NCBI RefSeq assembly: GCF_964355755.1
Contig: NC_092679.1
Span: 13,816,932-13,880,931 of the forward strand
Source of the DNA: Antedon mediterranea
Taxonomy: Eukaryota; Echinodermata; Crinoidea; Comatulida; Antedonidae
Reading direction: 5' to 3'
Length of the DNA stretch: 64,000 nucleotides
In this document: positions 1 through 62,900 of the stretch, one piece after another
Position numbering within the stretch: position 1 is the stretch's first letter
Layout of the letters: every line of letters begins with the position of its first letter
Program-made: the position numbers and the translations under genes
The notes under the pieces: model-generated
Seen by the model: only the letters and a program-made list of their open reading frames with translations
Told to the model about the DNA's origin: nothing
Database searches by the model: none

Positions 1-330
1 CAAAATTTATTTTCGATGAAATAAGGGTATGTTTCAGGCAATTTTAACCGTTTACAAAATTGCCATGAGTGCGCACTGCGCGTTAAATGTTATTGCGCAC
101 TCTTTTTGCCGATTTCTGTTTTCTTGACTTACTTATCAACTCGAAATTACGTTATACGAGCACGTCAAAAGTGACAGGCTACGCACGTGTAAATTTAAAA
201 AATATAAATGTTTTTAAACATTTCAACATTTTTAAACATGTTCAGTGATTTCGGTCAGTTGGTAGGTTGGTCGGTCGGTTGATAAACACTAATGATCACG
301 CGACTGCAGCCATCTATATGGCCTTGTTAT
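1..330 (-). repeat. Dispersed repeat, inverted copy of the one at 29263-29600
   Basis: Read on the minus strand, this segment starts with a motif containing CATGGCTGCAGTCGCG-like sequence (seen on the plus strand as the block near 300-330). It then has a GACC/AACC-rich stretch, an AT-rich centre with repeated AAACATTT words, and a conserved block near 150-195. The same blocks occur in the same order on the plus strand at 29263-29600, and the first part recurs near 9440-9520. No coding potential is seen. It is an interspersed repeat of unknown class, cut by the window edge. Confidence 0.6.
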
Positions 331-340
331 GAACACATAC

Positions 341-1271
341 ACGCCCGTATTCTTAAACCGGACTTTAGTCGTAGTTCGAGCTAAAATTAAAAAAATGATG
401 TCATTTTAATTCATAAACCGAACTTCAACTAAATCACCGACTAAATCAGGCCAACCTCGACTAAATCGAGACGGATTTTGATCGATTTTTTTAGTCCTGG
501 AGGGGGCAGACTAAATGGTCGACTAAATGGTTTTTAAACGATGTTTATAAAAAAACGTAACAGTCATTGAGTTGTTAAATTGGCCAGATATTGAAGAATG
601 AAATATCTATATTTATATTAGCTTAATTAAATATACATTGGTATAAATTATAATAATGAAAATCATCTTTATTTACAACTGTATACAAATTACATTATTT
701 TCTTCACGCAAGTCCGACTTGAGCTACGTCACACGCCATAGCGACAATGGGAGATGCGGCAATTCACCACGCGATGGAATGTTTAGGGGGCCTAGCGCTT
801 TCTTGTCACGCTATGAAGTGCGTGGTTCGTGGCGATCATACTTTGTTGGGGGCCTAGAAAATTTAAAAGTTACCGTACCGCCATGGTTCCTAAATATATT
901 TTTAAGATTTTATTTGTTGTTAATCAAATATACTTCACTGTTAAATTAATACTGATATTGTTCTAATAATTAACGATTAAAATTGTTTTTCATGTATATA
1001 GTCCTGATGCGTAAAAAGTGTTGTAAGAAATGGAAAGTGATATCAATGCGCAAAATTTCGTCTGCTCCTCAAATACTCTCTTGTCATTGGCCAATGTATA
1101 GCCTTTGTTACCCAGACGTGTGCAACTCGACTAAAAGCTCGACTTCATTAAGTCGAACTGCAAACTTCGACTACTTCGTTTTTTAATCGAATTTGAAGTA
1201 ATAGCTCGAACTACGACTTTTTCAAGTCGAACTTCGAACTACGACTAAAGTCCGGTTTAAGAATACGGGCG
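341..1271. mobile_element. MITE-like element with about 40-bp terminal inverted repeats
   Basis: The left end (341-380) and right end (1232-1271) are inverted copies starting CGCCCGTATTCTTAAACCGG. Degenerate GACTAAAT and CGACTAAA words follow inside both ends. The interior has only short unrelated frames and no transposase. The CCCGTATTC terminus resembles ends of Harbinger or ISL2EU-type non-autonomous elements; that is family resemblance only. No clear target duplication could be fixed. Confidence 0.65.
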
Positions 1272-2730
1272 ATAGTATTGGTTTAACATAGTATACGGTT
1301 TGACACGGATTGTCGGAAGAACACACAGTGTGAAACACATCGAAAAGAGAAACACCGTATATGAAGAAAATCAGTGTTGGAAGGAACCGGACATAAAAAA
1401 CAAGAAAACCTTTTCTCATTAGTTTGTTTTTATGGCTGGCAGCTATTAATACATTATTATACAGATATTGCCTGCTTAGAGGTGAAATATAAGATTTGAC
1501 ATCCCCAAGGGAATGATATTATGTTCGAGTGAAAATATATTTTCCGAAGCGCATCTGAGGTAAATATATAATTCCCCGAGAATACAAAAATCTGGTTTGA
1601 TATTGAAATAAAATCATGATTGTTTCTTCAATTCTATAAATTGTATAAGCATTTCCAACTGAGTTGGTATCAACAAAAGAAGTTCCGGATTCGGATCGTG
1701 ACATTAGTTTACTTTCACTTTACTTCTTTTCATTATACAGTACCTGTTTTTGTCATAACATACTTATTATGTATATCATTTTTTATTTCCTTGTGGTAGT
1801 CAAGTTTTAAATATATCTATCGATTTTATTGCTTACAATCGATGACATCTTGGCCACATCTGCAAAAAAGTCTTATCATTTGCTCACCAAGGTCGCCTTT
1901 TCCATTAGAAACAACTAGAATTTACGAACAAAATTGTATTTTAACCCTTTGAAGACGCAAGGTTTCTACCCCAAATGACTGAGCTTAAATAAGGTATTAA
2001 AGATTAGTATAAACTAGTAGATTCCGAAAATTCTCTGTTAATGGCTCTTCAAACAAACTTTCTTACTCTTACTTCTTGAATCGGAGGTATCTCTGGCGGG
2101 AATTTATTAAGTCATAGAGAATCAGTTTCCATATTGCAATAATAACAATGTATCCTAAATAAAAGCTGATTTCTTAACCTACTCATAATAATTACACAGA
2201 TACTGTACTGTATTTTTTTGTTAATTACTTAAGGTGTATTATTTAGGGACCACAGAGTAATAAAATAACTAAATACTATTGTAAAATGAACAACATGTAA
2301 ACAAGTAGAGTGAATCTTCCCTGATATAAAGCGGTTTCTTTTTTTTTTTTTTTATTTGTATTTTGAAAACAAATTAATATGTATTTTAATATGTTATTTT
2401 AAATTAACTTTTCTTGATTTGATCTCTGAGTTCACAATTACAACATATATTATGTTGGGAAATGGTGTGAACAAACAGTGCATGCCACTATGCGAACCTC
2501 ACAAATTACATTAATAGTGTTCAATTTGGTGAAAAGTATCAATACCATCAATGGAATCTTCTAAAAAAAGTATATCTAGTTTAAAATAAATCGAAATAGT
2601 GTTTGTATGTCTGTAATACACACAAATACATAATTGGACATACATAGAAATTCCCTATCCACCAAAAATGAACTGATAACAACAAATTAATACGGTTTAA
2701 TTGATAACGGTTTGTAAAAATGTCTGAGTC
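1272..2730. other. AT-rich stretch without a recognisable gene
   Basis: No exon-like frame with flanking splice signals was found. A block near 1460-1520 recurs near 47655-47712, just upstream of an exon of the receptor-like gene. It shares the words GAGGTGAAATAT and GATTTGACATCC, so it may be a fragment of the duplicated receptor locus or a shared repeat. A T-run lies near 2340. Confidence 0.4.
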
Positions 2731-2910
2731 ATAAGGTTTATCGCAAATACCTTGATTTCGCGAGACACGTCATTGCACAATGCATGATGGGAAGGGTTTG
2801 GGAGCAATAGCGCCAACCGTATAATACAAACTTTATATACTGGTGGTGGCGCTATTGCTCCCAAACCCTTCCCATTATGCATCGCTCACGCAATTTTCGA
2901 TAAACCTTAT
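2731..2910. mobile_element. 180-bp hairpin MITE flanked by TA
   Basis: The outer ends AGGTTTATCG and CGATAAACCT lie between TA dinucleotides (2731-2743 and 2898-2910). Inside, 2782-2815 and 2847-2880 form a second, almost perfect 34-bp inverted repeat around a 31-bp loop. The whole unit folds into a long hairpin. A TA target fits a Tc1/mariner-type non-autonomous element. There is no coding sequence. Confidence 0.75.
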
Positions 2911-3839
2911 TGTATATAGATATAAAATTAACACAATAAATACAAACAGTACAGTACAGCTATACGGTAACTAATGCAAACACTTTTTAAAAATGTTTCA
3001 AGAATTATCGCAGTTAGGTAACTATATATTTTATTAAATCAATCATTTCATCATTAATTAACATCTTGTAAGCAATATTAGTAATATGGAATATAAAGTT
3101 AATTTACACGATTTAAAAATGTTAATGAATGAAGTTTAAAAAGATAAAAAATGTGATAAGAATGATAATAATAGAGATTTTAGGGTGATGACATGAAAGA
3201 TGATATTATTGTGGTGTTTAGGCCACAAAGGAGAGAAAAACAAGCTCTTATTTATGCGTATTGTTCTTTAAAAATAGGTCTAATTTACAATGGTATTTCG
3301 TAAGTACAAGATCAAGACTTATTGATGTATTGTATATGTCAGTAAAATTTACAGTTTACAAAATGGTTCTTTCTATAATCTGAATCTGACTACAGTATCA
3401 TACAGTGTATGACCTTCTTATATATACAAAATATTCATATGTCATACATACATTATACACAATGGCAATGATATACGACTATTTTTACCCTACGTATCAA
3501 CATGTTGTTTTCTCTTTTTTCACATTCATTGATATTCTTTTTAACACTAAAATTTGATAATTCCGTCATGACACAGTAATAATCGTAATAATATAAACAT
3601 TCTAGTCACAACCAGGTGATACTTTCCACACTTTAATAATTTAATCAGATTTTTAGACTAACTTAAAACAAGCATATTTTATTCCTCTTTCATTACTATA
3701 TTAAAACAAATTGAATATGTAAAGTTACAATGGAAAACTTAACAAAACTGGCTATTACAACTGAAAAGTTAAAAAGGTTATTTTATCTTTTTTTTTAATC
3801 TTATACTATACAGTAACAAGAGTTATGGTATAAATATTA
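2911..3839. other. AT-rich stretch, nothing recognised
   Basis: There are many short A/T runs and stop codons in all frames. No splice-bounded exon, terminal repeat or RNA gene was recognised. Confidence 0.5.
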
Positions 3840-4088
3840 CCTCATTATAAAAATAAAGCTATATTATAATATTATTTTGCTACTCGGAGACTGCGGCAAT
3901 TAACAAACTCATAGAATAATAAATAAAGACGCATACAACATAAGTTCTGGCTTAAATAGTTTAATTAGTAAATGAACATTCACCCATGTTAAACTGCACA
4001 TAAAAGTCATAAGCAAATATAAGTTATATAGCAATAATTTTCCAATTCTAAGTAAGCACAACAGGGATGCTCAGAGAAAAATAGCCCG

Positions 4089-4303
4089 CGGCAGGTGCCA
4101 AGGCACCGCCAAGAGCAGCCCACCAAAGTGCAGGAAAAAAGGAAGAATTTTCACTTACCCGCATGAAACTGAGATAAAAAAAAACAACCAGGACTCCCTG
4201 GAAAAGTCTCCAAAGAGACTGATAGGTACAAAAATCACCATTATTACAACGATGCTCCCCATGAAAGTATACGCAGATACTTCATGGCAGTATGTTGAGC
4301 ATC
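4089..4303. other. Cluster of short hairpins, possible structured or SINE-like sequence
   Basis: Several stems lie in about 215 bp. GGTGCC pairs with GGCACC (4094-4107). AGTCTC pairs with GAGACT around 4206-4220. CCATGAAAGTAT pairs with a near-complement inside an outer GATGCTC/GAGCATC stem (4251-4303). It is not coding. It does not match the tRNA, U1, U2, U5 or U6 layouts I know, so it is left unassigned. Confidence 0.35.
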
Positions 4304-4677
4304 AGCACCTTCCACCCAAGGCTAATCCAAGGGCTCCACTACCGTACACTGCAATGGGAGCAAAGTTTTACTAACACATCGCAAATAAACATTACTGACA
4401 GAAAAAAAAACCAAAAACGCATGGATGTGAGTTATAATGTAAATGTAGATTTTTATTATGTTGTTGAAAATTCGCAGAAATATAAATTATTCAATGAAAT
4501 ACAACAATACAGCTGGCCACCTCTTGAACATGATGAGGGAAATCCCTGTTTGCAGTTTATGACCGCCCCTTTGGAGATCTAAAAGTATGATGCTTTTTGA
4601 AGTTTCCGTAACAACCTGAGGTGATTGTCAATTAGATTGCCAAGGGCTTTAGGTTGTCAACAAAGCATGTCACAGGT

Positions 4678-4945
4678 TAAGATAAGATAAGATATGATAA
4701 GATAAATCTTTATTGTCATGAACACAAGGCGAGCATGAAATTGGTTTTCCTTGATGCTTAAAAACACATACAATATATAAAACATTAAAAATATCAATAC
4801 AATACATTAAAAATATATACAGTTGTAAACAAGTGAAACAAACTATCTTTGAAATGTTGAGTTGGAAACATGAATAGAGTTGTGGACGATGTCTAGAACA
4901 GAATTGGTGAACTTTCAAAAATTGTCTTCGGTTTTTCGGTAGGTT
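4678..4945 (-). mobile_element. 3' end of a LINE with a simple-repeat tail
   Basis: On the minus strand this ends in AATAAAGATTTATCTTATC followed by repeated ATCTT words. That is the usual shape of a CR1/L2-like LINE tail. Only a short 3' untranslated piece is present and no reverse transcriptase frame remains. Confidence 0.5.
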
Positions 4946-5049
4946 GATCCAATATTTAAATCAAAGACACATATAAAATAAAAATATAATGTTTAAAGTA
5001 CATTGTTAAAATATTAAAGTGATTGGTTGACCTCATTATAAAAATAAAG

Positions 5050-6972
5050 CTATATTATAATATTATTTTTCTCAATGTGTGATTCTTCAAGGTCATCTTC
5101 ATCGATTTGAAGAAGCAGTGCTCCACTCGCTTGACGACAACAGTCTGTTTTGAATTTCTTCAAAAAATCAACTGAAAACGAGAGCAAACAAATAATTTAA
5201 TATTAATTTATAAGCAGTTGGCTGAATATGGTGGTTTAATATTCCTACATTTACATTATAGGCCTTCAATAAATATCTCACCAATTACGACTAGCATGAT
5301 AGAAACATTCAGCATAATTAGGATAACGGGAGTTATCTTGTGAAGTAAACCAATGACGTCATCTTCATTGAAACTCTGATCCAAGTTTACGATCGCCCCA
5401 ATGGATAGATTGGAATTGGAATCTCTGCTCTGACTTCTCTTTTATTGGTTCAAGGTATAAGTGCAACACAATAAATATGACAGTAAAAATAGAGAGTAAG
5501 TGTCACAAGTGACATAAGTTTTGTATTTATTTTGCAAGTCATGCTTACTTTTCCTTTTGTTTTCATTATTTGAACCTTTCTTTTGTTTTAGGAAACTATT
5601 GTTTGAAGCCAGTGGAGCAGAGTGTTTGTGTGCAGAGAAGGAGTGTGTGGAGGTTGCTGATTGGAGGAGAGGTGTAAGAGTTGAGTTGGTGTTTGAGTTG
5701 CTGATTGGTTGAGAAGGATAAGGTGGTGGTATGTGTGCAATTGAGGGAAGGTTGAGAGGGGGATGAAAATTGAGAGGAGACAGAGAAGGAGGGCTATGTT
5801 ATGTTGAAGCAGAAAGGAAATAAAGTGATACATATGAAGTTAATAAAGTGTGGGTTGGAAAGAATTATGGTGATATAGAGCTGAAGCAGAAAGGAAAAAA
5901 AGGGATATACATGAAGTTAATAATTGTGAGTTGGAAATAATTATGGTGATATAGAGCTGAAGCAGAAAATAGAGCTGAAGCAGGAAGGAAATAAAGTGAT
6001 ATACATGAAGTTAATAAATTGTGCGTTGGAAATAATTATGGTGATATAGAGCTGAAGCAGAAAGGAAATAAAGTGATATACATGAAGTTAATAAATTGTG
6101 AGTTGGAAGTAATACTATAAGGCAGTACAGAAAGACATCAAGAAACATTTTAACTTTATATTTCATTTATTTATATGTCAGAAAATAGTTGCAGTTTGAG
6201 AAGAATAATAATTGGGAATACAAGCATAACGGGAGCAGAGGCGTGGGAGTTGTTTAGTTGCAGAATCGTTTTAACTTTTATCTTTCGAATTTGTTTTTGT
6301 GTCAGCGTAGGAGAAAAGGCAAGAAGGAACGATATTTGTGGACATTCATTGTTGTTTAATTATTCATCTTGTGATATTATTGTATTTGGAAGGGGGGTTC
6401 TGGGATTTATTTGACAATAAGAAGATTGTTGATATTTTGTCTGGAAGGATTGGGAATTTGGGAAAGTGTATAAATTGTGTAAGGAATAGGGATACTGTAT
6501 CATTGTTTGAGAATTGGTGGTTTTTTTGTGGGGGGGGGGGGGGGGGGGTTGGATTATAGAAGGAAGAATTGTTTGTCAAAGATTATTATTAAATTTACTT
6601 TTTACATTTATATTTGTACAGTTGTGGCTATTTACCGTTGTTTACCGGTGGTTACCAGATATTACATGTCCGAAAGAGCCGTAATTGCGGCTGTTTGACA
6701 GTAAGACAAACTTGAGGACACGTCATCTTTCAAGTTTGCAATGAGTGCCAACAGAGCCTTGTTGTACAGCTCAAAGGATTCCCAAAACCAAAATGTTTGC
6801 TTGTATTGTACCCAAAAGAACCTTCCTCCAATAATCCACTCTTTACTCTGATTTTTCTTATGTTGATCACAACGTACATTTTTATAGTATAGCATAAGAA
6901 ATATGGCCAATGGAAAACCAATGATGTATATTAAAGCAAGGTAAACAAGTGTTTTGTTAGTTTGATACGATA
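5050..6972 (-). pseudogene. Truncated copy of the 3' exons of the GCC2/GCC3 multi-membrane receptor gene
   Basis: On the minus strand, 6972-6706 plus 5500-5282 match the last third of the large exon of the gene at 45210-47562, including frames such as FWFWESFELYNKALLALIAN. The terminal exon (5171-5050) encodes a tail very like that of the intact gene (LLLQIDEDD versus LLLQIDDDP). The splice sites around the last intron remain: a GTGAGA donor at 5281-5276 and a CAG acceptor at 5174-5172. The copy is dead by several marks. It loses homology upstream near 6972, has a net 23-bp deletion near 5410 that shifts the frame, and is split by a solo LTR at 5501-6700. It is most simply a partial duplicate that decayed. 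Confidence 0.85.
5501..6700 (+). mobile_element. Solo LTR, copy 1 (1200 bp)
   Basis: It begins TGTCACAAGTGACATAAG and ends CGGCTGTTTGACA, so it has TG...CA ends with short inverted TGTCA/TGACA. It is flanked by the 5-bp duplication GTAAG (5496-5500 and 6701-6705). Removing it and one GTAAG restores the exon sequence found uninterrupted at about 45697-45727. It contains about four 78-bp tandem units (near 5815-6115) and a G run near 6530. No internal retroelement genes remain, so it is a recombined LTR. The 5-bp duplication fits Gypsy or BEL-type families. A second copy lies at 24626-25923. Confidence 0.9.
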
Positions 6973-8010
6973 AAAATATGGTATAAAAATATCTAAAGCT
7001 GATCTGTATTGTACTGTACTATAAAAACAATCAGGTCCAGTGCGGTAGACAAATCATCAAACTGATGTGATTCCTAGGCCAAAGGAGTGCCCTTTCTAGA
7101 TAAAGTGCAGCGGGAAATTCAAATTGTCAATGGTACACATATGTCATTCAACACTCGAAAGGTGGCCTAGCGGAGCTCGTTATTGAATGTCCGCACAGTA
7201 CGACAGTCCGTTCGGATACAACCGTAGCACAATCGTTATAATAGACCAATGAAAGTAAGCATATAAACGAAAACAAGATTATCAAATGCCTGAATAATAA
7301 AATACAATGATGACTGTAGCAAAATCAATGGCGTCAAACAGATGGCATTGAGCTTGAGCATGTAGCCTACATGAAAATGTGATCATTTTGTTATAGGGCC
7401 TAACTAACTGGGAAGTATTAACCTCTGTGTATCCCTGCAGCATCTATAGAGATTGTTCATCCAAAAGGACGAAAATTTATAAATAAATAACCTACTGTAA
7501 TATATAATAATAATATTCATTAGTAGTTTAATGACAAAATCAGTAGCATTAGCATAACAATTGCTTTAGAGTGAACATTACCTATTATTATTGAAACCAG
7601 ATGGAATTGTGTTCACAGTTATAAACAGTTACACCAAGGAAAATCCATCGGTTTCGTTTTTGTTTTAAACAAGTTTGCAATTATGTGTCTTGAAAGTATT
7701 ATTTTGATCACATGATGTCCATACATGTTTCTTTTCATTCGGACCACCAAAGCTTTGAATTGTCGCTGTCATCCACTGTCATAATGCGAAGTTAGACTAT
7801 GCTTTAATTAGGAATTAGAATACACTCTATATAATGAATACATTTAGTTTATTCTGTGACAGTACTCAGTTCACTAAAACGAAACTTGGCTCTGGGTTTT
7901 CACCACGTTCTCGGAATACATACATCATAAGAGTAACTTTCTATCAATTAAATTTAAATCATTAAAACAGTTTCTGATACATTGAATTCCTATACCACTG
8001 TTTTGTTTGT
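6973..8010. other. Non-coding stretch with a dispersed repeat (7676-7905)
   Basis: No exon was recognised. Bases 7676-7905 are repeated at about 11940-12155 with the same order of words, for example TATTATTTTGATCAC and GAATACATTTAGTTTATTC. The segment just upstream of 8010 is the likely 3' untranslated region of the minus-strand gene ending at 8011. Confidence 0.5.
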
Positions 8011-9189
8011 CTATTGCCTAGATCCTTTGTAATTTCGACGTAAACTGCTGCTCTGATTTTGAGGTCGTGTCATGTCTGGTGGTCTTGGTGCTGTTTTTGA
8101 GGGTTTTGCTATTTTTCCTGTGGCATTTATTGATGGTAATGTCAAACTAGTATGTTCGTCGTCACTGGGAAGACGACTTGCACTCAGCCGTGGTGGGCTC
8201 AGTTGTGGTCTATTTGTTAGTCGTCCATTTGGTGGTTGCTTCCTCGCAGCTTGCTTATATGTTGCCGTATGTGGACCAATGTTATTCGAGGAAAGTCTTG
8301 CAATTTTAGCATTATCAAGCGATGGTCTGCTTCCTGGAAATACGGTAGCAGTACGTCCGACGCATCCATCTGAAAGTTTGTTTCTTGTATCAGAAGTGTA
8401 GCGGTTTCCCATCTTTTGACAGCTTGCAGTCGAGTTGTCTCTATGTAGTCTTTTAATCAGAGGACTAGATTTACCAGAAAGTTCAACCATATCCAGAAGA
8501 CTTCTCTCGTGCTGCTTCTTTCTTTGAGGCTTTCTTGTATACTTGATTGAGTCTGCAAAGTAAAATTATAAGTTACACTTTTAATTAGGTCTTGTTTCAT
8601 TTCAACCCATTTAAGCTAATGCATAGTAGACTGGTTTGACTCCATCTCAAAGTAAAAATATTTTGTTACACTTTTAGTTAGGTCTTGTTTCATTTGAACA
8701 CTCTCTCATTTCAATCTAAACTAAAGCACGGTGGACTTGTTTGACTCCATATCCTACATATTACTGGTATCCTACATGGTTCTGAATTGGGAGACATGTG
8801 CTTTACCTTCATTGTTAGAGAATCCGATTTTAGATGACATCAAGTCACACCCAGAAGTGACATCTGAAGGATGCACATCAAAGATCTGAAAATCTGTGTT
8901 TGATCTATATCTACGATCGTCAGATAATCTATATAAGAAGACATGGATTTATAAACTATAATATTGGTCTAAATGATTTCGGTACAAATAACTAAATACG
9001 GTTATGTATGTAGGCCTATATTGAATTGGCGTGTAGTGTACCTAGGCTAAAAAAGCATTGATACAAAACATCGTTCAAAAAATGTTTCAAAACACAAATC
9101 TTTTATCTATTTATTTAATTATACATGCTATTGAAATTTCATTTAGACTATAATTTAGTAACTTACCGTTTGTTTTTTCGTGAATCCAT
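8011..9189 (-). CDS. Three-exon gene for a 228-residue basic, low-complexity protein of unknown function
   Basis: Coding exons on the minus strand are 9189-9167 (23 nt, ATG, MDSRKNKR with the last codon split), 8928-8807 (122 nt) and 8552-8011 (542 nt, ending TAG). They sum to 687 nt, which is exactly 229 codons. Splice signals are GTAAGT at 9166, a TATAG acceptor before 8928, a GTAAAG donor after 8807 and a TTTGCAG acceptor before 8552, with compatible phases. The protein is rich in Lys, Arg, Ser, Pro and Asn and has a basic cluster TRKPQRKKQHER near residue 50. I see no signal peptide, membrane segment or known catalytic motif. It looks disordered and possibly nuclear, which is an inference from composition. 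A second first exon lies at 10637-10659. I do not recognise the family. Confidence 0.7.
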
Positions 9190-9439
9190 TAGTAAATTAG
9201 TGAAATATTTTCGGAGAAATTGTAAGACAGTGTAAGTTTGTTTGCTTTTAGACGTTTGTATGCTGTAGTAGTTACTATACTAATGCGAAAACGTATACAA
9301 TGGCAACAATCACGCGCTGCGCGCGTTACCATGGCTGGAAGTGGGAGCATACGCATTAATGCACTGTAATCTGCAGCTGTGATATGATGTGTGGCAAACA
9401 AGTATGACATGAACTTACATTGTTATAAATAAACAAGAC

Positions 9440-9530
9440 CATATACATGGCTGCAGTCGCGTGTGCAAATTTGAGTCAGTGTTTACCGACCGACCGACCT
9501 ACCAACCGATCGACATAGTTAGCTATAGAG
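9440..9530 (+). repeat. Fragment of the dispersed repeat with GACC-rich block
   Basis: It carries the CATGGCTGCAGTCGCGTG word followed by TTTACCGACCGACCGACC, as in the copies at 29263-29600 and (inverted) 1-330. It leads directly into the tandem array at 9530-10235 and probably seeded it. Confidence 0.55.
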
Positions 9531-10235
9531 TAGCGTTTGCACGCGATTAAATTAAATAAATAATTAAATTAAAAACATCTATATTTGCCTCCAAGTATTA
9601 ATATCCACTGTCAAAATAACGAAAAAACATAAATATGAGTTAGTGTTTACCGACCGACCGACCGAAATTGTGAAAATGTTAAAAAATGTTAAACAAATTT
9701 TAAAAACATTTATATTTGCCTCCAAGTATCAATATCCACTGTCAAAATAACGAAAAAATATGAATATGAGTTTGTGTTTACACCGATCGACTGACCGACA
9801 TAGTGAGCTACTAAAAAAAAACGAAAGAAATATGAATATGAATTAGTATTTACCGAACGACTAACAGACCGAAAAAAAAAACATTTTTTAAACATTTATA
9901 TTTGCCTCCAAGTATTAATATCCAGTGTCAAATTAAAGAAAAAAATATGAATATGAGTTTAGTGTTTACCGACCGACCAACCGACCGAAACTGCTAAAAA
10001 TGCTGAAAAATTGTTTTAAACACTTATGTTGGCCTCCAAGTATTAATATCCAGTGTCAAATTAAAAAAAAAATATGATTATGTGTTTAGTGTTTACCGAC
10101 CGACCGACCAACCTACCGAAATTGCTGAAGATGTAAAAAAATGTTGAAAAATGTTAAAAAACATTCATTATATTTGCATCCAAGTATTAATATCCACTGT
10201 CAAAATAACGGGGAAAAATATGAATATGAGTTTCA
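9530..10235 (+). repeat. Tandem array, about five units of 130-185 bp
   Basis: The marker CCAAGTATTAATATCC, or a close variant, recurs near 9590, 9720, 9905, 10035 and 10176, giving spacings of about 130, 185, 130 and 141 bp. Each unit also has a TTTACCGACCGACCGA-type block and runs of AAAATGTT. The array lies between the two alternative first exons (9167-9189 and 10637-10659) of the minus-strand gene. No coding sequence. Confidence 0.8.
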
Positions 10236-14050: not shown

Positions 14051-14355
14051 TCAATTCAATTCAATTCAAATTAACATTTATTTCTTCCACAGTAAAATAA
14101 CAACAAATATTCAATATAATTGTAAAATGAAGGAAGAGGGCAAAACTAAAAAAGTAACGCCAGATGAAAAACAGAAATTATATTAATCAAAAGACCTTGT
14201 GACAAGCAAGCCCTTAATAAATAATATAAATAAAAATTACAAATTAATTAACGTACAAAAACACACAGACAGGACAGGGCAAAAAAAAGAGAAAAAATGA
14301 ACAAACGATCATGTGATATAAAAGCTGATGATAATATAAAAAAACATTTTATAAA

Positions 14356-15179
14356 TCATATTTTGACAAAAGAAATTTGTTTGGCTTTATGAGAGAAAAT
14401 TTTCCTGGAGGGGGTTGCAATGATTTCAGGAGAAAGGTCATTATATAATTTAACACCGCTATAACGGACATTGTGTTGGAGCAAGGTAAGTTTGGGCTGA
14501 GGAAGATGAAGTTTGTTGCAAGTTCTAGTAGAATAGGAGTGAGTGAGTTTTTGAAGAAGAAGCATAAATTGGATGGAAGAAGAGAATGCAAAGCTTCGTA
14601 AACAGAGATTGTGTAATTTATTAATGTCATAAATAGTTAGTAAATTTAAATTTTATAAAAGAGGGGACCCGAATGATCAAGGGCTAGCGAATCAGATATA
14701 ATGCGTACCGCCTTCTTTTGGAGCTTATGAATTTGATAGAGATTTGATTTAAAATGATTGGCCCAGACAATATTACAATAGGTAATAAAAGGAAGGATAA
14801 GAGAGGAATAAATAGAATGTAAGATTGAATTAGGAAGGAAAAATGGAAGGCGATAAATAATAACGATATTTTTGGATATTTTTAATTCTTTTATATGTTT
14901 TTTAAAATTGAGTTCGTAACATTATTAAGTTCGCGATTAATAGAAAGAAAGAGGGAATCAAGATTTGAATTAGAATAAAATATGGTGGTGTCGTCAGCGT
15001 AAAGGTAGAACGTTAAATTTTTAGATGAGTTTGGTAAATCATTTACATAAAGAAGAAATAAAAGAGGACCGAGGAGGGAACCCTTTTTAGATTGATTAAT
15101 AAGAACGAAATGCGTGTACAGAAAAGAGTATTTGCTTAAAAATAAATCATATGCTGCGTTGGGGTCCCGGGCATTGATG
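14356..15179 (-). pseudogene. LINE ORF2, C-terminal part of reverse transcriptase
   Basis: On the minus strand from 15179 the frame gives INARDPNAAYDLFLSKY, typical of the linker before the RT domain. After an apparent internal deletion it continues with the RT motifs GSLLGPLLFLLYVNDLP and LYADDTTIFY, the latter holding the catalytic YADD. A C-terminal stretch RYSGVKLYNDLSPEI follows in another frame near 14450. The N-terminal half of RT is missing. The 5' end of this frame continues across the palindrome into the endonuclease part at 23352 and above. Confidence 0.8.
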
Positions 15180-18100
15180 CACCCGATTCTGCTACTGTCC
15201 ACATGTGCTATCTGTAAAACTATAGCAAGTTATACACGTTGTTGTCTGCTATAAATGCTGTACTTTTAACACACGGTACACTGTCTGTAGCACAGTGTCT
15301 GTTGACAATTTACAATGATGTACTGTACAACCATAGATAGGCAGGTTTTCGTACTGCCATGCAAGAATGGATAGGTGTTTTCCGCCGCTTTTAGGCCTTC
15401 TTGTCAATTATTGTTATTATTATACGAATTACGTAATTAGTTTAGTAGCTCATCTACCTTTTTAGCAGGGCATAATGAATATTGTAGCTAGGCTAGGCCT
15501 ACTAGTCTAGCGGGAAATCAACCAATTATTTGGTTGGATACGAGTTTAGGGTAGGAAGTTAAGTACGAGTTGGCATGGGTACGAGTCGACCAGGGGTGAA
15601 TCGACCAGGGTACACCCGGCCGCCCTACTAGAGCATAGGCTACAGGCCTGCAGGAATGGGAAATCTGTCCTAGCTATAGGCATAGGCCTACATTGGGACG
15701 CCCAAAAAAGCCATCCCATGAGCATAAAAAGGCCTCGTAGAGCCAGACGTGTTAGCCTATACTACACAGTACTAACTACTAGTACGTCTACCATTTATTA
15801 TAGTTCCATGGTACTATACTACGGATCACTACTATCTAGGCCTAGCTAGTATGCTAGAGTTCCAGTAATTTCGGTCGCGTTTTCGGCCTACTTATCAGGA
15901 GGGCATGTGAGAGGTGAGGTAGGTTAGCCCAGCTAGGCTAAACTAACCTGTAAGTAGTATTCTAGCATGGGAACGAGTTGACACAGTGGTACGGGTTGAC
16001 CCTTATCATTTTCTAGGGTGCTGGTCAACCTACCCATGCCAACTCATACCCAATTTGGCTAACCCGTACTCAAATAATTGGTCAAATCGTACCAACTTTG
16101 GCTAACCTGTACCAAAACTTTTAATAGCATTAAACATGGATACTGGTCAGCCCATGAAGAGTACGAGCCAGCCCTTGATGATTGCTAGAGTGCGAGCCAA
16201 CATTTTGGGTACGAATATCCCAAAATTTGGTTACCAGTTGGAATTGCGGGTTGACCTGTATTCTTCTAGCTAATCTTACTAGGCCTCGAGTAGGTCTACG
16301 CTAAATTCCGGCTACAATAATGGTCTATTCTGTTTATAGCTTTATTGATACTGGGTTCAAATCTGGGTTGGGACGGCTTTTTCTCATTCAAAAACAGATT
16401 TCCTTATAATAATAAAATAATATCGGCCTATGAATTTAACTTAATATTGTATTGTTTACATAATATTAGTAATTCCCATTGCATTTATTATTATTATTAT
16501 TATATATTTTACGGTTACCCCTTAATTATAGTAACTATAGTATAACTTCCTTGTTATATTTTACAATATTGTCTTCATAATTCAGCAATTTTTTTTTTCA
16601 CAGCACAAATTATCATACTGAATCATCACACACCAAGTCTCATGAAATCTCTACTGTATTTCTGCAAGCTAATGCAGCTACATGGTATTGCCTTGAGGCT
16701 AAATTACACTGTATACTGGCACTACCATCATTCCTAGCCCACACGTAAGTACAGTCGTGTACTACTGATTCCATCCTGTGGTCAAGGCTTTATTTGCTCT
16801 TATGCTTATTTCCTCTTACATACAGAGTATGTATGGCTTCTAATTTGCTTTTATACCGGTTAATTTAAAAATCATTTATGCCTATTGGTGCATAAAGATC
16901 AAATTTAGACTGTAAATACTGGAATAATCACCCAAAATTTATTTCACAGCTAGAAAAAAGCATACAGAGTTTTTTGTTGTTTGTTTTATTCATAACTGTT
17001 GAATTGCATCCCAATACATGGTACCTATTGGTATTATATCTATAAATATAAAGTACTCTCTTATAAATAGATGTATTTCTCCAAACTACTCCAACTATAG
17101 TATACTAATAATATATGTACTATTAGCATACTACTGTACACTTTGTAGACAAGAAATAAGTTGTATCCACCTAGAGGACTTATGTTAGTACTGTACAGTC
17201 GATCGTCCTCTCACTGGCCTGGTCAACATAATCTACGCCTAGATTATTACAGTAATTAAAAAGTACATTATTAAGAGATTTTTTTTTTTTTGCAGAAATC
17301 AAAGTTATGTGTATAGAAAGCAGTACTCGTATTAAAAACTAAGCAGGTTGTACTGAACGCAAACTGGCAGGATATTTTGAATATTTTTTGTTCATTTTCC
17401 ACGAACTGGAGACAAAGACATATTACGACCCTTTTATTAAAATTTATTTGGATAGACCTCCATGTAAATTCATTAAAGGCTATATGATTGTTTTATATTT
17501 TAATAATGTGATAGTAGAAAGCCATTGTGCATAATGAGGACTATGAATCTAATATTTACTTGCATTCTCATCTTTTTAACATTTTATTTATAATGCTGGT
17601 AATGAATTTACTATTGAAAAGGTCATGTTTCCACTTATCTCAAATGTTGGCACCCGGCCCACCTCTAACCTTGGTAGAACTGACTGTGTTCTACCTTTCT
17701 ACATGAGTACATATAGTAGTGTTTCCACCATACTACTTCAACCTGGTAATTGAATAAATTTCATTGGGGTAACATTTAAACTAATTATCACCTTTAACAT
17801 AAAGTATCCTCCTCCTGAAACACGTATTTGTACTGTACTTCATCCATTACTTAATACTAATTTATGTGATTTATGTCTAACTTCAGGAATGATCTGAAGC
17901 TAGAAGAACGAATTTCTGTACACATATAAAAAATAAACCAATGTTTTCCTAATAATTTAACCCCTAGGTTGATAACTAACAAAGAAATTATTGAAATTAT
18001 GTTCTCACAATATATAGGTGTACTGTATCTACAATGCATGCTGCTGTACTTGTTTTTAACCGCATAATGGCATTGAAAACAAGAATGTTTTATAATTATT

Positions 18101-19231
18101 ATAGGTTATTTCTAAATATTAAAGGTCTGAAACAGAAACTAAATGTTACCAAACTATGTTTTTGAAAATCTCTATGATATAATATAATAATATGAACATA
18201 ATATTAAATTATATTGATAATCATCATGTCCTTATAAATTCATTTATATTTCTTTTGTGTAATATAGTTCATATAATATGTATTAAATAAATTGGTAAGG
18301 CCCTATATTGTTTATATTTAAGGAAAGTTTATATACACTATTATTTTATGCCTACCAATATAGTATTAATTGTTTATGTAACTATTTTGTCTAATTGCAT
18401 TGATTTTTTGTATAGGCCAATGGCATTAATGTTTTTCTCAAAGCAAATTAGCCTAATAATGCCATATTTAGACACATAATTCTTTGATTTCTGATATTGT
18501 ACTTGTGTATGCATTACTAAAATAGTAGTTATTTTATTTCATTTATAATGTATGTATAAACATTTATTCAGTTTTTTTTTTACCTTTTTAAGTTTAAAAA
18601 ATATTAAAATACCTATCAACCTTTCTGTTATTGTTACTATTATAATATTTTTTGCAGAAGATTGATTTCAATAAAAAAATTTAAAACATTTAATTTGACT
18701 TATACTGTACTATGTTAGTTCAGGAGATGAAGTGTGTGTTGGTAGAATCTGGTGTGTTTGAGGTTGGTGATGTGAGGTGTATTTTTGTGACTTTAAGACC
18801 TAAATTAGATGTTTTCTGAAGAAAAGAAGCGAATAGGCTTCCCAATAAAATAGTATGTAACAGTGTATATTAAAGTACATTGAATGAATTCGAGCGGAAA
18901 AATAACACACATAAAAAAACATTCATTTCCTTGTCGAAAAGCGCCCTCTCTAGTTTTCTATTAATTTATTAATAATTATTATTAATTAATGAGTAATATA
19001 AACATATTTTTAACATTTGATGATGGAAGCTGATACTACTCCAAACAAAGTTTCATACCTCCAAATTTCATCAACGTATTCAAAGCACTTCAATAAATAT
19101 CACATTGAACATTAAAAATTAGGGTTATGGATAGAATTTTGCTTAAAACATATACAAAAAACATCGATAAAAAAATTTTTCGTATTCAAAAACATTTGAT
19201 ACTTGGTATAAATGTTCAATATAGGTTGCTC
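15180..19231 (+). repeat. Left arm of the 8.17-kb palindrome
   Basis: The arm is non-coding. Its outer part (15480-16320) is richer in GC and in TAGGCCTA words and contains about ten degenerate copies of a GGTACGAGTTGACC motif. A tRNA-like tail fragment (GGGTTCAAATCTGGGTTGGG, 16352-16371) is also present in the right arm. The inner part (17000-19231) is AT-rich. Only short frames with no recognisable product are present. Confidence 0.85.
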
Positions 19232-19416
19232 CATCCATATTGCAAAAAAAAAAATGACTATCGAGCCATATTACTGATTTTTTAAATTTACGTTTTTACA
19301 AAATGTACACTTATGAAAGACCTTACAATTCCAATGCATTTTTTAAACCTAATAACGATTTTGAAAAAAACAACCAACAAAATACGTTCATGAATGAAAT
19401 TTTGTTTCTGTGAATA
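19232..19416. other. 185-bp spacer at the centre of the palindrome
   Basis: This is the only part of the insertion not matched in the other arm. It is AT-rich with A-runs, has no coding frame, and lies between GTTCAATATAGGTTGCTC (19214-19231) and its complement (19417-19434). Confidence 0.8.
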
Positions 19417-22400
19417 GAGCAACCTATATTGAACATATAAAAGAAGTTTCAAATGTTTTTAAATTCGGAAAGTATTTTTTATCGATGTTTTTTGTATATG
19501 TTTTTAAGCAAAATTCTATCCATAACCCTAATTTTTAATGTTCAATGTGATATTTATTGAAGTGCTTTGAATACGTTGACGAAATTGGGAGGTATGACAC
19601 CTTGTTAGGAGTAGTATCAGCTTCCAGCATTAAATGTTAAAAATAAGTTTATATTACTCATTAATTAATAATAATTATTAATAAATTAATAGAAAACTAG
19701 AGAGGGCGCTTTTCGACAAGGAAATGAATGATTTTTTTATGTGTGTTATTTTTCCGCTCGAGTTTATTCAATGTAGTGTAATATACACTGTTATATACAT
19801 ACTATTTTATTGGGAATTATTTTTGTGTGAATCATCTTGGAGTTGTTTGAAAGCCTATCCACTTACTTCTTTTCTTCAGAAAACATCTAATTTAGGTCTT
19901 AAAGTGACAAAAATACACCTCACATCACCAACCTCCAACACACCAGATTCTACCAACACACACTTCATCTCCTGAACTAACATAGTACAGTATAAGTCAA
20001 ATTAATTGTTTAAATTTTTTTTATTGAAATCAATCTGCCTCAAAAAATATAATAATAGTAACAATAACAGAAAGGTAGATAGGTATTTTAATAATTATTT
20101 TTAAACTTAAAAATGTAAAAAAAAACTGATTAAAAGTTTATACATACATTATAAATGAAATAAAATAACTACTCTTTTAGTAATGCATACACAAGTACAG
20201 AATATCAGAAATCAATGAATTATGTTTCTAAATATGGCATTTAGGCTAATTTGATTTGAGAAAACATTAATGCCATTGGCCTATACAAAAAATCAATGCA
20301 ATTAGACAAAATAGTTACATAAACAATTAATACTAATATTGGTAGGCATAAAATAATAGTGTATATAAACTTTCCTTAAATATAAACAGTATAGGGCCTT
20401 ACCAATTTATTTAATACATAATATATGAACTATATTACACAAAAGAAATATAAATGAATTTATAAGGACATGATGATTATCAAAAATAGTCAATATAATT
20501 TAATATTATGTTCATATTATTATATTATATCAATCATAGAGATTTTCAAAAACATAGTTTGGTAACATTTAGTTTCTTTTTCAGACCTTTAATATTTGGA
20601 AATAACATAATAATTATAAAACATTCTTTTTTTTAATGCCATTATGCGGTTAAAAACAAGTACAGCAGTATGCATATGTAGATACAGTACACATATATTA
20701 TTGTGAGAACACAATTTCAATAATTTCTTTGTTAGTTATCAACACCTAGGGGTTAAATTTTTAGGAAAACATTGGTTTATTTTTTATATAAATTATATGT
20801 GCAGAAATTCGTTCTTCTAGCCTCAGATCATTCCTGAAGTTAGACATAAATCACCCAAATTAGTATTAAGTAATTAAATGAATAGTAGATGAAGTACAGT
20901 ACAAATACATGTTTCAGGAGGATACTTTATGTTAAAGGTGATAATTTTACCCCGATGAAATGTATTCAATTACCAGGTTGAAGTATGGTGGAAACACTAC
21001 TATATGGCAAATTAAATGTACTCATATAGAACACAGTCAGTTCTACCAAGGTTAGAGGTGTGCCACAATTTGAGATAAGTGGACACATGACTTTTTCAAT
21101 AGTAAATTCATTACCAGCATTATAAATAAAGTTTTAAAAAGATGAGAATGTAAGTAAATATCAGATTCATAGTCCTCATTATACACAATGATTTTCTACT
21201 ATCACATATTAAAATATAAAACAATCATGAAGCCTTTAATGAAATTAAATGGAGGTCTATCCAAATAAATTTAAATAAAAGGGTCGTAATATGTCTTCGT
21301 CTCCAGTTCGTGGAAATTGAAGTTAGGATTCCATCATTTCAACAACAAAAAATATTCAAAATTTTCCTGCCAGTTTGCGTTCAAGAGTACAACCTGCTTA
21401 GTTTTAAATACGAGTACTGCTTTCTATACACATAACTTTGATTTCTGAAAAAAAAAATCCCTGTAATAAATGTACTTTAATTACTGTAATAATCTAGGCG
21501 TAGATTATGTTGACCAGACCAGTGAGAGGACGATCGACTGTACAGTACTAACATAAGTCCTCTAGGTGGATACAACTTATTTCTTGTCTAAAAAGTGTAC
21601 AGTAGTATGCTAATAGTACTATTATTAGATTAGGTAGTTGGAGTAGTTTGGAGAGATACATCTATTTATAAGAAAGTACTTTATTATTATAGATATAATA
21701 CTAATAGGTACCATGTATTGGGATGCAATTCAACAGTTATGAATAAAAAAAACTCTGTATGCTTTTTTCTGGCTGTGAAATATAAAATTGTTAAATGAAA
21801 AAGAAAATTTAGGGTGATCATCCCAGTATTTACAGTCTAAATTTGATCTTTATGCAACAATAGGCATAAACGATTTTTTAATTAACAGGTATAAAAGCAA
21901 ATTAAAAGCCTTACGTACTCTGTATGTTGGAGGAAATAAGCATAAGTGCAAATAAATCCTTGACCACAGGATGTAATTCACTATTTGGAATCAGTAGTAC
22001 ACGATTGTGTTGGACCATAATGTGGTCCAGGTTGACGGGCCAGGAATGATGGTAGTGCCCAGTATACAGTGTAGTTTAGCCTCAAGGCAATACCATGTAG
22101 CTGGATTAGCTTGGAGAAATACACTAGAGATTTCATGAGATTTGGTGTGTGATGATTCAGTTTGATAATTAGCTGTGAAAAAAAAGTGTTGAATTATGAA
22201 GAAAATATTGTAAAATATAACAAGGAAGTTATACTATAGTATAATTAAGGGGTAACAGTAAAATATATTATAATAATAAATGCAATGGGAATTACTATTA
22301 CTACTAATATTATGTATACAATACAATATTACAGTTAAATTCATAGGTCGATATTATTTTATTATTATAAGGAAATCTGTTTTAGAATGAGAAAAAACCG

Positions 22401-23351
22401 TCCCAACCTAGATTTGAACCCAGCTATCAATAAAGCTATAAAGCTATTGGTACGAGTTGACCAATTATTTGGGTACGAGTTAGCCAAGTTTGGTACGAGT
22501 TGACATGGGTATGTTACGGGTTGACCAGCACCTAGAATACGGATAAAGATCAACCCGTACCCCCATGCCGACTCATTCCCATCCCATGGTAGAATACTAC
22601 TTACATGTTAGTTTAGCCTAGCTGGGCTAACCTACCTCACCTCTCACATGCCCTCCTGAAAAAACGCGACCGAAATTACTGGAACCCTACCCTACCAGAC
22701 CTAGATAGTAGTGATCCGTAGTACCATGGAACTATAATAAATGGTAGACGTACTAGTACTGTGTAGTATATGTTAACATGTCTGGCTCTACGAGGCCTTT
22801 TTATGCTCATAGGATGGCTTTTTTGGACGTCCCAATGTAGGCCTATGCATATAACTAGGACAGATTTCCCATTCCTGCAGGCCTGTAGCCTATGCTCTAG
22901 TAGGGCGCCCGGGTGTACCCTGGTCGATTCACCCCTGGTCGACTCGTACCCATGCCAACTCGTACTTAACTTCCTATCCTAAACTCGTATCCAACCAAAT
23001 AATTGGTTGATTTCCCGCTAGACTAGTAGGCCTAGCCTAGCTACAATATTCATTATGCCCTACTAAAAAGGTAGATGAGCTACTAGACTAATTACGTAAT
23101 TCGTATAATAATAACAATAATTGACTAGAAGGCCTAAAAGCGGCGGAAAACACCTAGGCCTAGGCCTATCCATTCTTGCATGGCAGTACGAAAACCTGCC
23201 TATGGTTGTACATCATTGTAAATTGTCAGCAGACACTGTGCTACGGACAGTGTACCGTGTGTTAAAATTACAGCATTTATAGCAGACAACAACGTGTATA
23301 ACTAGCTATAGTTTTACAGATAGCACCTGTGGACAGTAGCAGAATCGGGTG
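19417..23351 (-). repeat. Right arm of the 8.17-kb palindrome
   Basis: It is an inverted copy of the left arm, about 117 bp shorter in total. Much of the difference lies in the GTACGAGTTGACC repeat region, which spans about 160 bp here (22440-22600) and about 300 bp in the comparable inner block of the left arm. It carries no gene. Confidence 0.85.
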
Positions 23352-23367
23352 ATTGATGACATCGTCC

Positions 23368-24245
23368 CAGGAACAATTTGATAGGTCAGTGTGAAATTTA
23401 TTAATATTATTGACGTTAATTTGCGTTTTATATTATTATTGTTAGTATTATTTTAGCTTTACTTGAGATGTTAAAAACAGGGAGATGATCAGTAACATTA
23501 CCAATATTTGAAGATTCAATTTCATTTGTAATGATATTGTCTAAAAGCGTAGCAGTATAGGGAGTAATCCGTGTAGGTCTATGAATAAGACTGATATAGG
23601 AATTATTAAAAAGGCAATTAACAAAATGTTTTGTATTATCATCACTCAAATTTTAGTACATCAACATTAAAATCTCCTAAAATATAGATACGCTTGTTTT
23701 CTTTGGAAAGTCTTTTAAGTAATAAATCAAGTTGCTCGTTTAATATGGAATATTAATTATATCAATATTCTTATCATTAGTTTTTATTTCGATAAAATGG
23801 TATTCACAAAAGTATGGACTGGATGACAAATCGGTTTTAAATGAAAGACCGTCTCTGACATACATAAGAATGCCACCACACTTGTACGTACGTGGTTTAA
23901 AAGTAATAGAATAATTAGGAATATTAATAAGAGGGTTTTCATGTTTCATACATGTTTCAGATACAGAAATTACATCAAAATTAAAATTTATAGAATATAA
24001 ACAGGATGTGAAGTTATCGAAATATTTTTGGATGCTTCTAGCATTAAATGAATACAAGAAAATTTTCTCTCATAATCCGAATTATAAGTTTGCAAAAATT
24101 CATGTGGTAAATAATACTTGGAAAAATTAACATCAGTAAAGTAGTGTTCATCTGGATCAATATCATTAAAATGTTTATTAGAAGTTGAATAGGGATTAAA
24201 CAAAATATTAGATAATCGATCGGGATTGTTAGCCATTACCGGCAT
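23368..24245 (-). pseudogene. LINE ORF2, endonuclease (EEP) domain
   Basis: On the minus strand it starts near 24245 with MPVMANNPDRLSNILF. After a frameshift it gives the endonuclease motifs FNARSIQKYFDNF, VISVSETC (E-rich catalytic motif) and CGGILMYVRDG, then HRPTRITPYTATLLDNIITN and VTDHLPVFN (the D-H-x-x-V-type end motif). It cleaves target DNA to prime reverse transcription in LINEs. Frameshifts near 24060, 23750 and 23645 make it non-functional. It joins the RT half at 15179 when the palindrome is removed. Confidence 0.8.
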
Positions 24246-57663: not shown

Positions 57664-58530
57664 TTGTGTTACAAAATGGCCTTCCCGACATGTAGAATAG
57701 GTCTTGTTGGACACTCGTTTGTACGCAGGTTGGAATGCTATACCAGCGAACGCAAATTCTTTGCCTTACGCCTAGATGCAAGTTTGTACAATGTCAAGTA
57801 TTATTCACGCGGAGGTGCAACGACATACAGATTCCCTGATCTGCTTAAGGGATGGTCCACGCCGAAAGATATCGTTTACGTTCATCTAGGAGAGAATGAC
57901 ATTGTGAAACGATCTAATAATTTTATTGTGAACAAACTCGATAATTTATTTGACTTTCTTGATTTTGGACTAGAGTGTAAACATACTGTGGTTAGCCACC
58001 TGTTAAAGCGGCACCCCAGTCGGGTAAGCTCTAACTTCAACGACTCCGCTGTGGACTTTAACCGTCGACTTCAGGCGAATTATGCCGATGGTGCATGTGT
58101 AACATATTGGCGTCACAGAGGCCTGTGGAACGACTGGTCCTATATTCACTCCGATCCGATGGCGTACATCTTAACAGAAGTTCTTCAAATGGCCGATCGT
58201 CATGTATCGGTACGAACGTCGCGTCCAACAAGCTATTCAACAAGAAGAAGAAATTATAAGGCCAGTAGTTTTAATTTAAATTTATATACAAATGTTCAGA
58301 ACCTCCACATGTTTTGCCTTCGGGCAAAAATTTGGCCTTTGGGACTAATGTTAGCCTGTGTTTGCCTTTCGGGCACTATGTTGGCCTTCGGGCCTTATGT
58401 TTGCCTACGGGCCTTATGTTTGCCTTCGGGACTTATGTTTGCCTTCGGGCCTTATGTTTGCCTTCGGGCTTTATGCTTGCCTTCGGGCTTTATGCTTGCC
58501 TTCGGGCTTTATATTTGCCTTCGGGCCTAA
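57664..58530 (+). CDS. SGNH/GDSL-hydrolase-like protein running into a minisatellite
   Basis: The likely start is the ATG at 57676 (MAFPTCRIGL), although an upstream in-frame ATG exists at 57664. SGNH blocks are visible: IGLVGHSFVRRL with the nucleophile-type Ser, SRGGATTYRF (Gly block), VYVHLGENDI (Asn block) and YIHSDPMAY (His block). The domain covers about residues 10-190. Frames of this type in retroelements are thought to act as esterases. From about residue 215 the frame enters a 19-bp repeat array and encodes a repetitive hydrophobic tail, probably not part of the original protein. Confidence 0.7.
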   Translation: MCYKMAFPTCRIGLVGHSFVRRLECYTSERKFFALRLDASLYNVKYYSRGGATTYRFPDLLKGWSTPKDIVYVHLGENDIVKRSNNFIVNKLDNLFDFLDFGLECKHTVVSHLLKRHPSRVSSNFNDSAVDFNRRLQANYADGACVTYWRHRGLWNDWSYIHSDPMAYILTEVLQMADRHVSVRTSRPTSYSTRRRNYKASSFNLNLYTNVQNLHMFCLRAKIWPLGLMLACVCLSGTMLAFGPYVCLRALCLPSGLMFAFGPYVCLRALCLPSGFMLAFGLYICLRA

Positions 58531-58556
58531 TTTTTGCCTTCGGGCTAATGCGTGCC
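58311..58556 (+). repeat. 19-bp minisatellite, about 11-12 units, open in all three forward frames
   Basis: The unit is TATGTTTGCCTTCGGGCCT or close variants. Because 19 leaves a remainder of 1 when divided by 3, three units (57 nt) make one 19-residue period, and each forward frame encodes the same cyclic peptide (LCLPSGLMFAFG and flanks). This is why three overlapping frames of 95 residues or more appear here. Units vary by one or two bases. Confidence 0.9.
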
Positions 58557-61549: not shown

Positions 61550-62900
61550 CAGGGGCGCAGCCAGTGGGGGGGGGGGAGGGGTCACGAGGGTCCTGACCCC
61601 CTCCCCCGTTTTTTTTTAGAAAAAAATAAATAAAAACATGAGACAACAATACAGATCAAATCATCCTGGAGATACTGTGGAAGATTACTACCGAGCAGTA
61701 TTACCAAATCTACTTCTTGATCATTTACAAACCGAGTTAAAAACCCGTTTTTCTGCCGATAACAGGCCATGCTTTAAAATATTTGGCGTAGTACCCGAGT
61801 CTATCGTGAAGTGTAATGTTGAAGAAGTCTTCAAGGAACTTGAATTTGGTACGATGATCTGCCAAGACCCGAACATCTTCATTCCGAGCTTCAGTGATGG
61901 AAGCGACTGTGTAAAATTAGTGGATCCAGATGTGTTCCCGAATCGAATGTGCGTGCACTTCTTCTAATCGCGTAGGCCTATGCCCGTAACGTCTACTGAA
62001 GCTGAACGGAGTTTTTCGACTTTGTGGAGAACGAAAACCTGTTTGCGAAATCACATGTCTTATGAGCAGCTTTCGGGATTGTGCCTCATGAATATACACT
62101 TTAACATGAACATTAATACAGAGAATGTCATTCGCGAATTCTGTCTCCAAGCCAAGAAGAATGTTCCAAACTTATGTTTAAAGATGCATCACGCGATGTC
62201 TAGAGCGCCGTTATAGTAACTAACGTAAAATGTATGATAATAATTTAGAAGTTAGTTATTACAATTATGTATAAGCTATCACCTATACTATACATTCGAA
62301 CAAAATAGGTATATTTTTAAACAAAATATTGTATGTACTGGGTATGATAAGCGTCTCACATACACACGGAGCCAAGATAGCTTCTTGGACTTGCACAGTG
62401 TATGAACTCTAACTTTACGGTTCTCATTTAATAATATCACTCCATGCTATCAATATCATTCTAATTTCTTTTTTCAAACTTTTGCAACTCTACGTTCATT
62501 TCATGCAACTTTTGTATTGGTGAAAAGGGAGGAATTCAAATAATTCCTCCTCTTGAGTTTACAACCTCTCTACACAAATCAACAAACAAGCAAGAAAAAA
62601 AGTGTTTGTCTGTGGCAGCCTGGAATATAAAAATGTTCTGTAATGAAAATGAGAGTTGTTTTTTGTTTTCTTTGTTTCAGTTTATTAGTGTTAACATTGT
62701 CATATTTGTGTGTGCGTAAACCGATTCAAATGATCTAGATTGCGCTAGACCGCCAAAGCTTCCAGGAGGCTTCACCCCCTGGACCCCAACCGGGGGCCCT
62801 TGGCGGCCCCCTGGCCCCCAGCCCATGGTTGCTCGCTTCGCTCGCAAAATACTCACATATTGGTTGACCCCCCCTTTAATTCTTTGCTGGCTGCGCCCCT
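61550..62900 (+). mobile_element. hAT-type DNA transposon remnant nested in the recombinase
   Basis: Inverted ends AGGGGCGCAGCCAG (61551-61564) and CTGGCTGCGCCCCT (62887-62900) bound about 1.35 kb. A G/C-rich strip GGGGGCCCTTGGCGGCCCCC lies near the right end. The flanks share CTTAT, but a clean 8-bp duplication expected for hAT is not seen. Removing it rejoins the recombinase frame, showing it is younger than the retrotransposon. Confidence 0.8.
61638..62216 (+). pseudogene. hAT transposase remnant with C-terminal dimerisation motif
   Basis: The first frame (RQQYRSNHPGDTVEDYYRAV) matches the part of ZMYM1-like hAT proteins that precedes the C-terminus. The frame breaks at 61967. Then MPVTSTEAERSFSTLWRTKT and SYEQLSGLCLMNIH give the conserved hAT C-terminal dimerisation block. 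The catalytic N-terminal and central parts are absent, so it is a deletion derivative. Confidence 0.85.

Follow-up and report, generated by a model that had tools for sequence, protein, structure and literature searches.

An inverted repeat of 8172 bp interrupts a LINE in the crinoid Antedon mediterranea, raising the questions of what kind of element it is and what could have moved it there. We analysed a stretch of 64,000 nucleotides (the window) on contig C10, together with the whole 354-Mb assembly of 18 contigs to which it belongs. The element is a member of a family of non-autonomous foldback transposons, which we consider, with moderate confidence, to be moved in trans by a transposase of the P superfamily.

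The inverted repeat occupies window positions 15180-23351, is flanked on both sides by ATTGATG and contains no N; its boundaries read ATTGATG / CACCCGATTCTGCTACTGTC ... GACAGTAGCAGAATCGGGTG / ATTGATG (Table 1). The coordinates, identical ends and ATTGATG flanks given in a preliminary description, made from the sequence alone, are exact, and its estimate of about 4.0 kb for the arms was borne out (4058 bp for the left, 3941 bp for the right), but its 185-bp spacer was not: element positions 1-4058 pair with 8172-4232, leaving an unpaired centre of ~173 bp. Alignment of the arms, which the same description had proposed as a check, confirmed the inverted pairing, with 94.2% identity over aligned columns (218 mismatches in 3728 columns, and 51 gaps) or 86.2-89.1% when gaps are counted (blastn). 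The longest gap in the 3728-column alignment is 233 bp, and blastn delimits a left-arm-specific stretch of 237 bp. Tandem repeats within the arms are common in foldback transposons but not universal; TRF found no substantial array in the arms, the only arrays inside the element measuring 38 and 58 bp. Elsewhere in the window, at 58359-58545, a 19-bp unit, TGTTTGCCTTCGGGCCTTA, is tandemly repeated in 9.8 copies. A search of the window against Rfam yielded no match at the gathering threshold.

Table 1. Features of the inverted-repeat element and its host LINE, in window coordinates
Feature	Position	Strand	Evidence
Host LINE, reverse-transcriptase side	14349..15172	-	open frames, degenerate; by eye
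Left target-site duplication ATTGATG	15173..15179	.	read directly; empty-site paralogue
Left terminus CACCCGATTCTGCTACTGTC	15180..15199	+	matched at 221 places in the genome with two mismatches at most
Left arm, element 1-4058	15180..19237	+	arm alignment
Left-arm-only stretch of 237 bp, element 917-1153	16096..16332	.	blastn
Unpaired centre, ~173 bp	19238..19410	.	arm pairing
Right arm, element 4232-8172, inverted counterpart of the left arm	19411..23351	-	arm alignment
Right terminus, left 20 bp inverted	23332..23351	-	terminus search
Right target-site duplication ATTGATG	23352..23358	.	read directly
Host LINE, upstream side, same strand	23359..24245	-	open frames, degenerate; by eye

The inverted arms thus make up most of the element, with little or no coding sequence, as the preliminary description had also noted. 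Four ORFs of the element (82-100 aa) gave zero Pfam matches up to E = 1, just 12 of the 51 arm-to-arm gaps are multiples of three, the arm mismatches are spread evenly over the three positions (79/73/66) and P proteins found no match in the elements (best tblastn E 2.2); on these grounds a coding remnant in the arms was rejected. Since no coding capacity was found, the element should need a transposase supplied in trans.

The host LINE, identified by eye from its frames, is degenerate and lies on the minus strand. Joining its two flanks gives open reading across the junction (...NCSWDD-VINARDPNAAYDLF...), so that the claim that the empty site restores the LINE frame holds at the junction itself but not for the LINE as a whole, which carries stops elsewhere. 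A query of 300 bp of joined flanks, with the junction at 150, matched a LINE paralogue at C10:13744279-13744526 over query positions 54-300 at 96%, spanning the junction, and another at C6:18650637 over positions 54-279 at 89%. With a paralogue continuous through the junction, the empty site is seen directly and goes beyond reconstruction. Pieces of the host LINE recur several times within ~335 kb (C10:13.68-14.02 Mb, window included), pointing to local amplification.

The 20-bp terminus CACCCGATTCTGCTACTGTC was found at 221 places in the genome with up to two mismatches, and a reversed-pattern control at none. Positions were compiled for 100 of these places, and for 131 termini in all with further end searches, at least 90 of the 221 places lying outside these 131; a 400-bp end query gave 191 candidate places, 40 of which were scored. 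Thirteen elements, including that of the window, were read whole; seven further pairs were read at their ends, two of them also in the middle; and 60 single termini, some being ends of the seven pairs, were read for 541 bp each, their identity across the first 20 bases reflecting selection by the exact 20-mer. Tracing eight single termini inwards for 4-6 kb revealed two short elements (29 and 152 bp) and no transposase recognisable by eye among the frames. Other copies with the same termini and 7-bp duplications do exist, contrary to one of the two outcomes that the preliminary description named as refutations, and its reading of the 8172-bp inverted repeat as a very large foldback transposon is thereby upheld.

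The palindrome itself recurs at four further sites (C9b, C6a, C11a and C2a), with 97-99% identity over the left arm of the window element and with duplications of their own at C11a and C2a (7 bp) and C6a (8 bp). Left-type and right-type arms remain distinct in these copies. A tree built from 24 rows, each an arm end (C7tiny excluded; 8 of 21 inner branches open), places the left-type arms of six elements (win_l, C11a_l, C9b_r, C6a_r, C2a_l and C5a_r) in one clade with 99/100 support. Three long branches of the tree, C2a_r, C6b_r and C9a_r, are possibly misplaced. Because the left-type arms form one clade, the split between the arm types appears to be older than the burst of palindrome copies. 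The arm ends of other copies are more alike (98% over 1.07 kb in C3a and 98% over 2.25 kb in C9c), as expected if arms sometimes copy each other.

Short elements, 29 to 475 bp long, share the terminus. Beyond the shared start, terminal type A, GTCCACAGGTGCTATCTGTAAAAC, heads the long palindromes and type B, GTCAATAGGTATGTATCTG, the short elements; the exact CAACCGATTCTGCTACTGTC occurs at 22 places in the genome, and in 10 of 11 short sites the other end starts with CAACCG rather than CACCCG. The simplest reading would be that one transposase serves both types. Five loci (L021, L042, L047, L049 and L051) contain a 58-bp element remnant with identical 25-bp flanks, its duplication GCAATTC being exact in four of the five; this remnant seems to have multiplied inside another repeat, and the five loci were counted as one short site.

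Target-site duplications were read for 20 elements with paired ends, excluding the alternative pairing C6:14704621-14743719. The flanks of C9a and C2:22243406 are the same, which identifies them as a single insertion copied along with its surroundings, and the 20 pairs therefore represent 19 sites. Eleven have an exact 7-bp duplication: the window element (ATTGATG), C3a (CACAAAC), C9a (AACATAT), C11a (CAGAATT), C7tiny (TTATGCT), C6b (GTAAAAC), C9c (ATTATAT), C2a (TTCCACA), C6:8186903 (TCTCGAG), C2:19865187 (CATTATT) and C6:14704621 (GAACTTG). One more, C6a, has an 8-bp duplication, AAAGAAAT, and C5a and C2:22243406 have 7-mers with one mismatch. In the remaining six the 7-mers differ at two or more positions: two in C9:15033707, three in C7a, five in C3:13512916, the paired ends of which lie 29 kb apart and may not belong to one element, and six each in C3b, C10:20311683 and C9b, the left arm of the last being 98% identical to that of the window element. 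Among the short relatives, the duplication is exactly 7 bp at 10 of 13 sites, the exceptions being L041, L056 and L069, of which L069 shows a match of 6 bp. Several dispersed copies thus carry target duplications of constant length. Across 8 sites read on both sides and 53 flanks read on one, we saw no more than a weak preference for A+T and no trace of GTANTAC, the target motif of Galileo, a foldback-like transposon of Drosophila.

The six mismatched pairs, C9b included, bring up the possibility, doubtful but not negligible, that some copies other than that of the window are products of ectopic recombination, like those at Galileo inversion breakpoints; chimeric Galileo copies, as the consulted sections of one report describe them, likewise lack matching duplications (PMC3573991). 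Reciprocal exchange of duplications between copies was nevertheless discarded, with zero 7-mer exchange among 101 flank entries, in which a single 7-mer is common to different sites (C10:20311683_l and C2:19865187), and mutated duplications or mispairing account for the mismatched pairs as well.

The autonomous relative hoped for in the preliminary description did not emerge from the 131 of 221 termini and the elements read, in none of which a transposase was recognised when the frames were inspected by eye. Four long elements (two of 10.7 kb, one of 10.2 kb and one of 12.4 kb) and the middles of 16-kb and 26-kb elements were considered as autonomous copies and rejected, each consisting of palindrome plus other insertions, without a transposase recognisable by eye; LINE frames, again judged by eye, lie inside C9a and the 26-kb element. 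Measured from the closest of 131 of the 221 termini, and with match counts that are lower bounds, the nearest of at least 60 P-domain matches lies 23.7 kb away, the nearest of at least 36 MULE matches 94 kb, and the nearest of at least 59 hAT matches 11 kb, the next being at 38.6 kb. Within the window itself, a hAT dimerisation domain is matched weakly (28 bits) at ~61980-62108 (C10:13878911-13879039), 38.6 kb from the element.

Among 13 P loci fetched from this genome, both ends could be cleanly defined in three, and scans that admitted lengths of 5 to 10 bp gave each of these a 7-bp duplication: CGGACAC in L017 (5551 bp, 47-bp TIR), GTTTCAG in L089 (3386 bp) and GATACCG in L097 (6324 bp, 32-bp perfect TIR). 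Their frames match PF21787, and two also match PF21788 or PF12017. In the other ten loci, where clean ends were not found, these scans came up empty or yielded weak candidates 5, 6 or 8 bp long, the best being 8 bp in L088; looser scans of some of the ten also gave weak 7-bp candidates. With three P elements sharing its length, the 7-bp duplication, initially regarded as unusual, is not odd within this genome.

Several P-type loci have features of their own. A convergent second open frame, on the strand opposite to the transposase frame, is present in L017 (337 aa; C1:2820434-2828000), L097 (350 aa; C11:13871600-13879600) and L018 (237 aa; C6:31440100-31446500); that of L017 weakly resembles the other two (~23% identity, E 4e-4 to 6e-7), and none has a Pfam match above the cut-off. 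A THAP domain is usual at the N-terminus of P-element transposases; those of L018, L096 and L097 show a zf-AD-like zinc finger (PF07776) at 19.5-25.8 bits, below the 28-bit cut-off. L088 (C3:13617500-13625000) is a P-like locus between inverted tandem repeats of AGTCAAGTCGCCCCATCGCAAAGTCGCC, and a repeat similar in translation to these arrays sits inside C2a (8039-10199), perhaps representing a second long-TIR P family.

The foldback family has target duplications of 7 or 8 bp and termini that start with CA and end with TG. Both are traits of the P superfamily, although the CA...TG termini are a weak criterion; two of the three P elements with clean ends begin with CA and L017 with CT. Because these three elements make 7-bp duplications and Galileo is a foldback of the P superfamily with the same duplication length, a P-type transposase is the mover that we favour. 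Several observations point the other way: a transposase with these termini was not found, the P-domain matches obtained come no closer than 23.7 kb to any of the 131 of 221 termini, the elements show no match to P proteins, the Galileo motif is absent and the 7-mers disagree at two or more positions in 6 of 20 pairs. The 13 fetched P loci likewise lack the terminus (up to 4 mismatches in 16), save for one 16-mer with four mismatches in L019. In the scenario that we propose, an ancestral element would have gained an inverted duplication that turned nearly its whole length into two mirror arms, and the resulting 8-kb palindrome would then have spread as a unit by cut-and-paste, with a trans-acting transposase, most probably a member of the P superfamily like that of Galileo, recognising the terminus and cutting with a 7-bp stagger.

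Transposases of other kinds fit less well. We give roughly one chance in several to another or undescribed transposase with a natural 7-bp duplication, such as Dada, for which the target duplication is 6-7 bp, or an unnamed lineage; P, MULE and hAT matches are all distant from the listed termini, but P elements are the sole transposons here in which a 7-bp duplication has been verified together with a transposase frame. Somewhat less plausible still is mobilisation of the same foldback element by a Mutator-like (MULE) transposase, as the authors of Tetris propose for their element. MULE transposase domains do occur in the genome, yet the nearest of at least 36 matches is 94 kb from the 131 of 221 termini, and the duplications of 7 bp in 11 pairs and 8 bp in one differ from the 8-10 bp of Tetris and of other Mutator/MULE elements. 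Nor do these lengths agree with hAT elements, which make 8-bp target duplications, seen here just in C6a. An unlikely variant, which we rank below the MULE reading, is a lineage of giant palindromes that spread intact at 8 kb, with arms more than three times those of Galileo in D. mojavensis, under an undescribed transposase whose 7-bp duplication merely resembles that of P elements. Long palindromes do pose an assembly hazard, but a segmental inverted duplication or assembly artefact is very improbable and was rejected, since the arms have diverged (218 of 3728 aligned columns, 94.2% identity, and 51 gaps), the palindrome sits at other sites within duplications of their own (for example CAGAATT at C11a and TTCCACA at C2a) and an empty LINE paralogue exists.

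The anatomy of the family is that of foldback transposons such as FB of D. melanogaster and Tu of sea urchin, which, as generally described, differ in having duplications of 9 and 8 bp, respectively, rather than 7 bp. The comparison with echinoderm foldback elements made in the preliminary description is less apt than one with Drosophila Galileo, which has the 7-bp duplication too. In the portions of the published accounts available to us, Galileo is a foldback-like element of the P superfamily with duplications of 7, rarely 8, bp, long inverted arms of highly variable length, many transposase-less copies and some copies without matching duplications (PMC4168063, PMC3573991), all of which recall the present family. 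In D. mojavensis, however, its arms measure 18-1250 bp, with one TIR of 1,264 bp (PMC3573991), compared with ~4 kb here, and our family differs further in that its arms have no substantial tandem array and that we found neither a GTANTAC target motif nor a transposase-bearing copy. In its described features the family would work like Galileo, which does not imply membership. From what the corresponding excerpts state, Tetris and DAIBAM of Drosophila virilis, a foldback element and a MITE with a common terminal sequence, also resemble our foldback and short elements in sharing a terminus and in that no autonomous copy was found, but Tetris, assigned to Mutator by its authors, has 8-10 bp duplications and tandem TIR-220 repeats in its arms (PMC4079207). 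Tm1 of root-knot nematodes is, by its description, another foldback family of an invertebrate, although its authors title it a Mutator/Foldback family (PMC3169594).

Repeat libraries (Repbase, Dfam) aside, the portions of the literature covered by our search contained no description of an 8-kb palindromic foldback element. Given this result and arms well beyond those reported for Galileo of D. mojavensis in the sections consulted, the family appears to be new within a known kind, and its earlier designation as undescribed is not contradicted by that literature. Foldback elements can drive inversions, as Galileo did by ectopic recombination between copies, according to the accessible part of the report (PMC2775673). 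The family presented here is well preserved: the palindrome as a whole, and not its ends alone, recurs at several sites with arm types that can still be told apart, making the family a test case for the formation, survival and spread of long palindromes. Should its transposase prove to be of the P type, biology of the Galileo kind would be extended to a genome in which the resident P elements, too, duplicate 7 bp on insertion.
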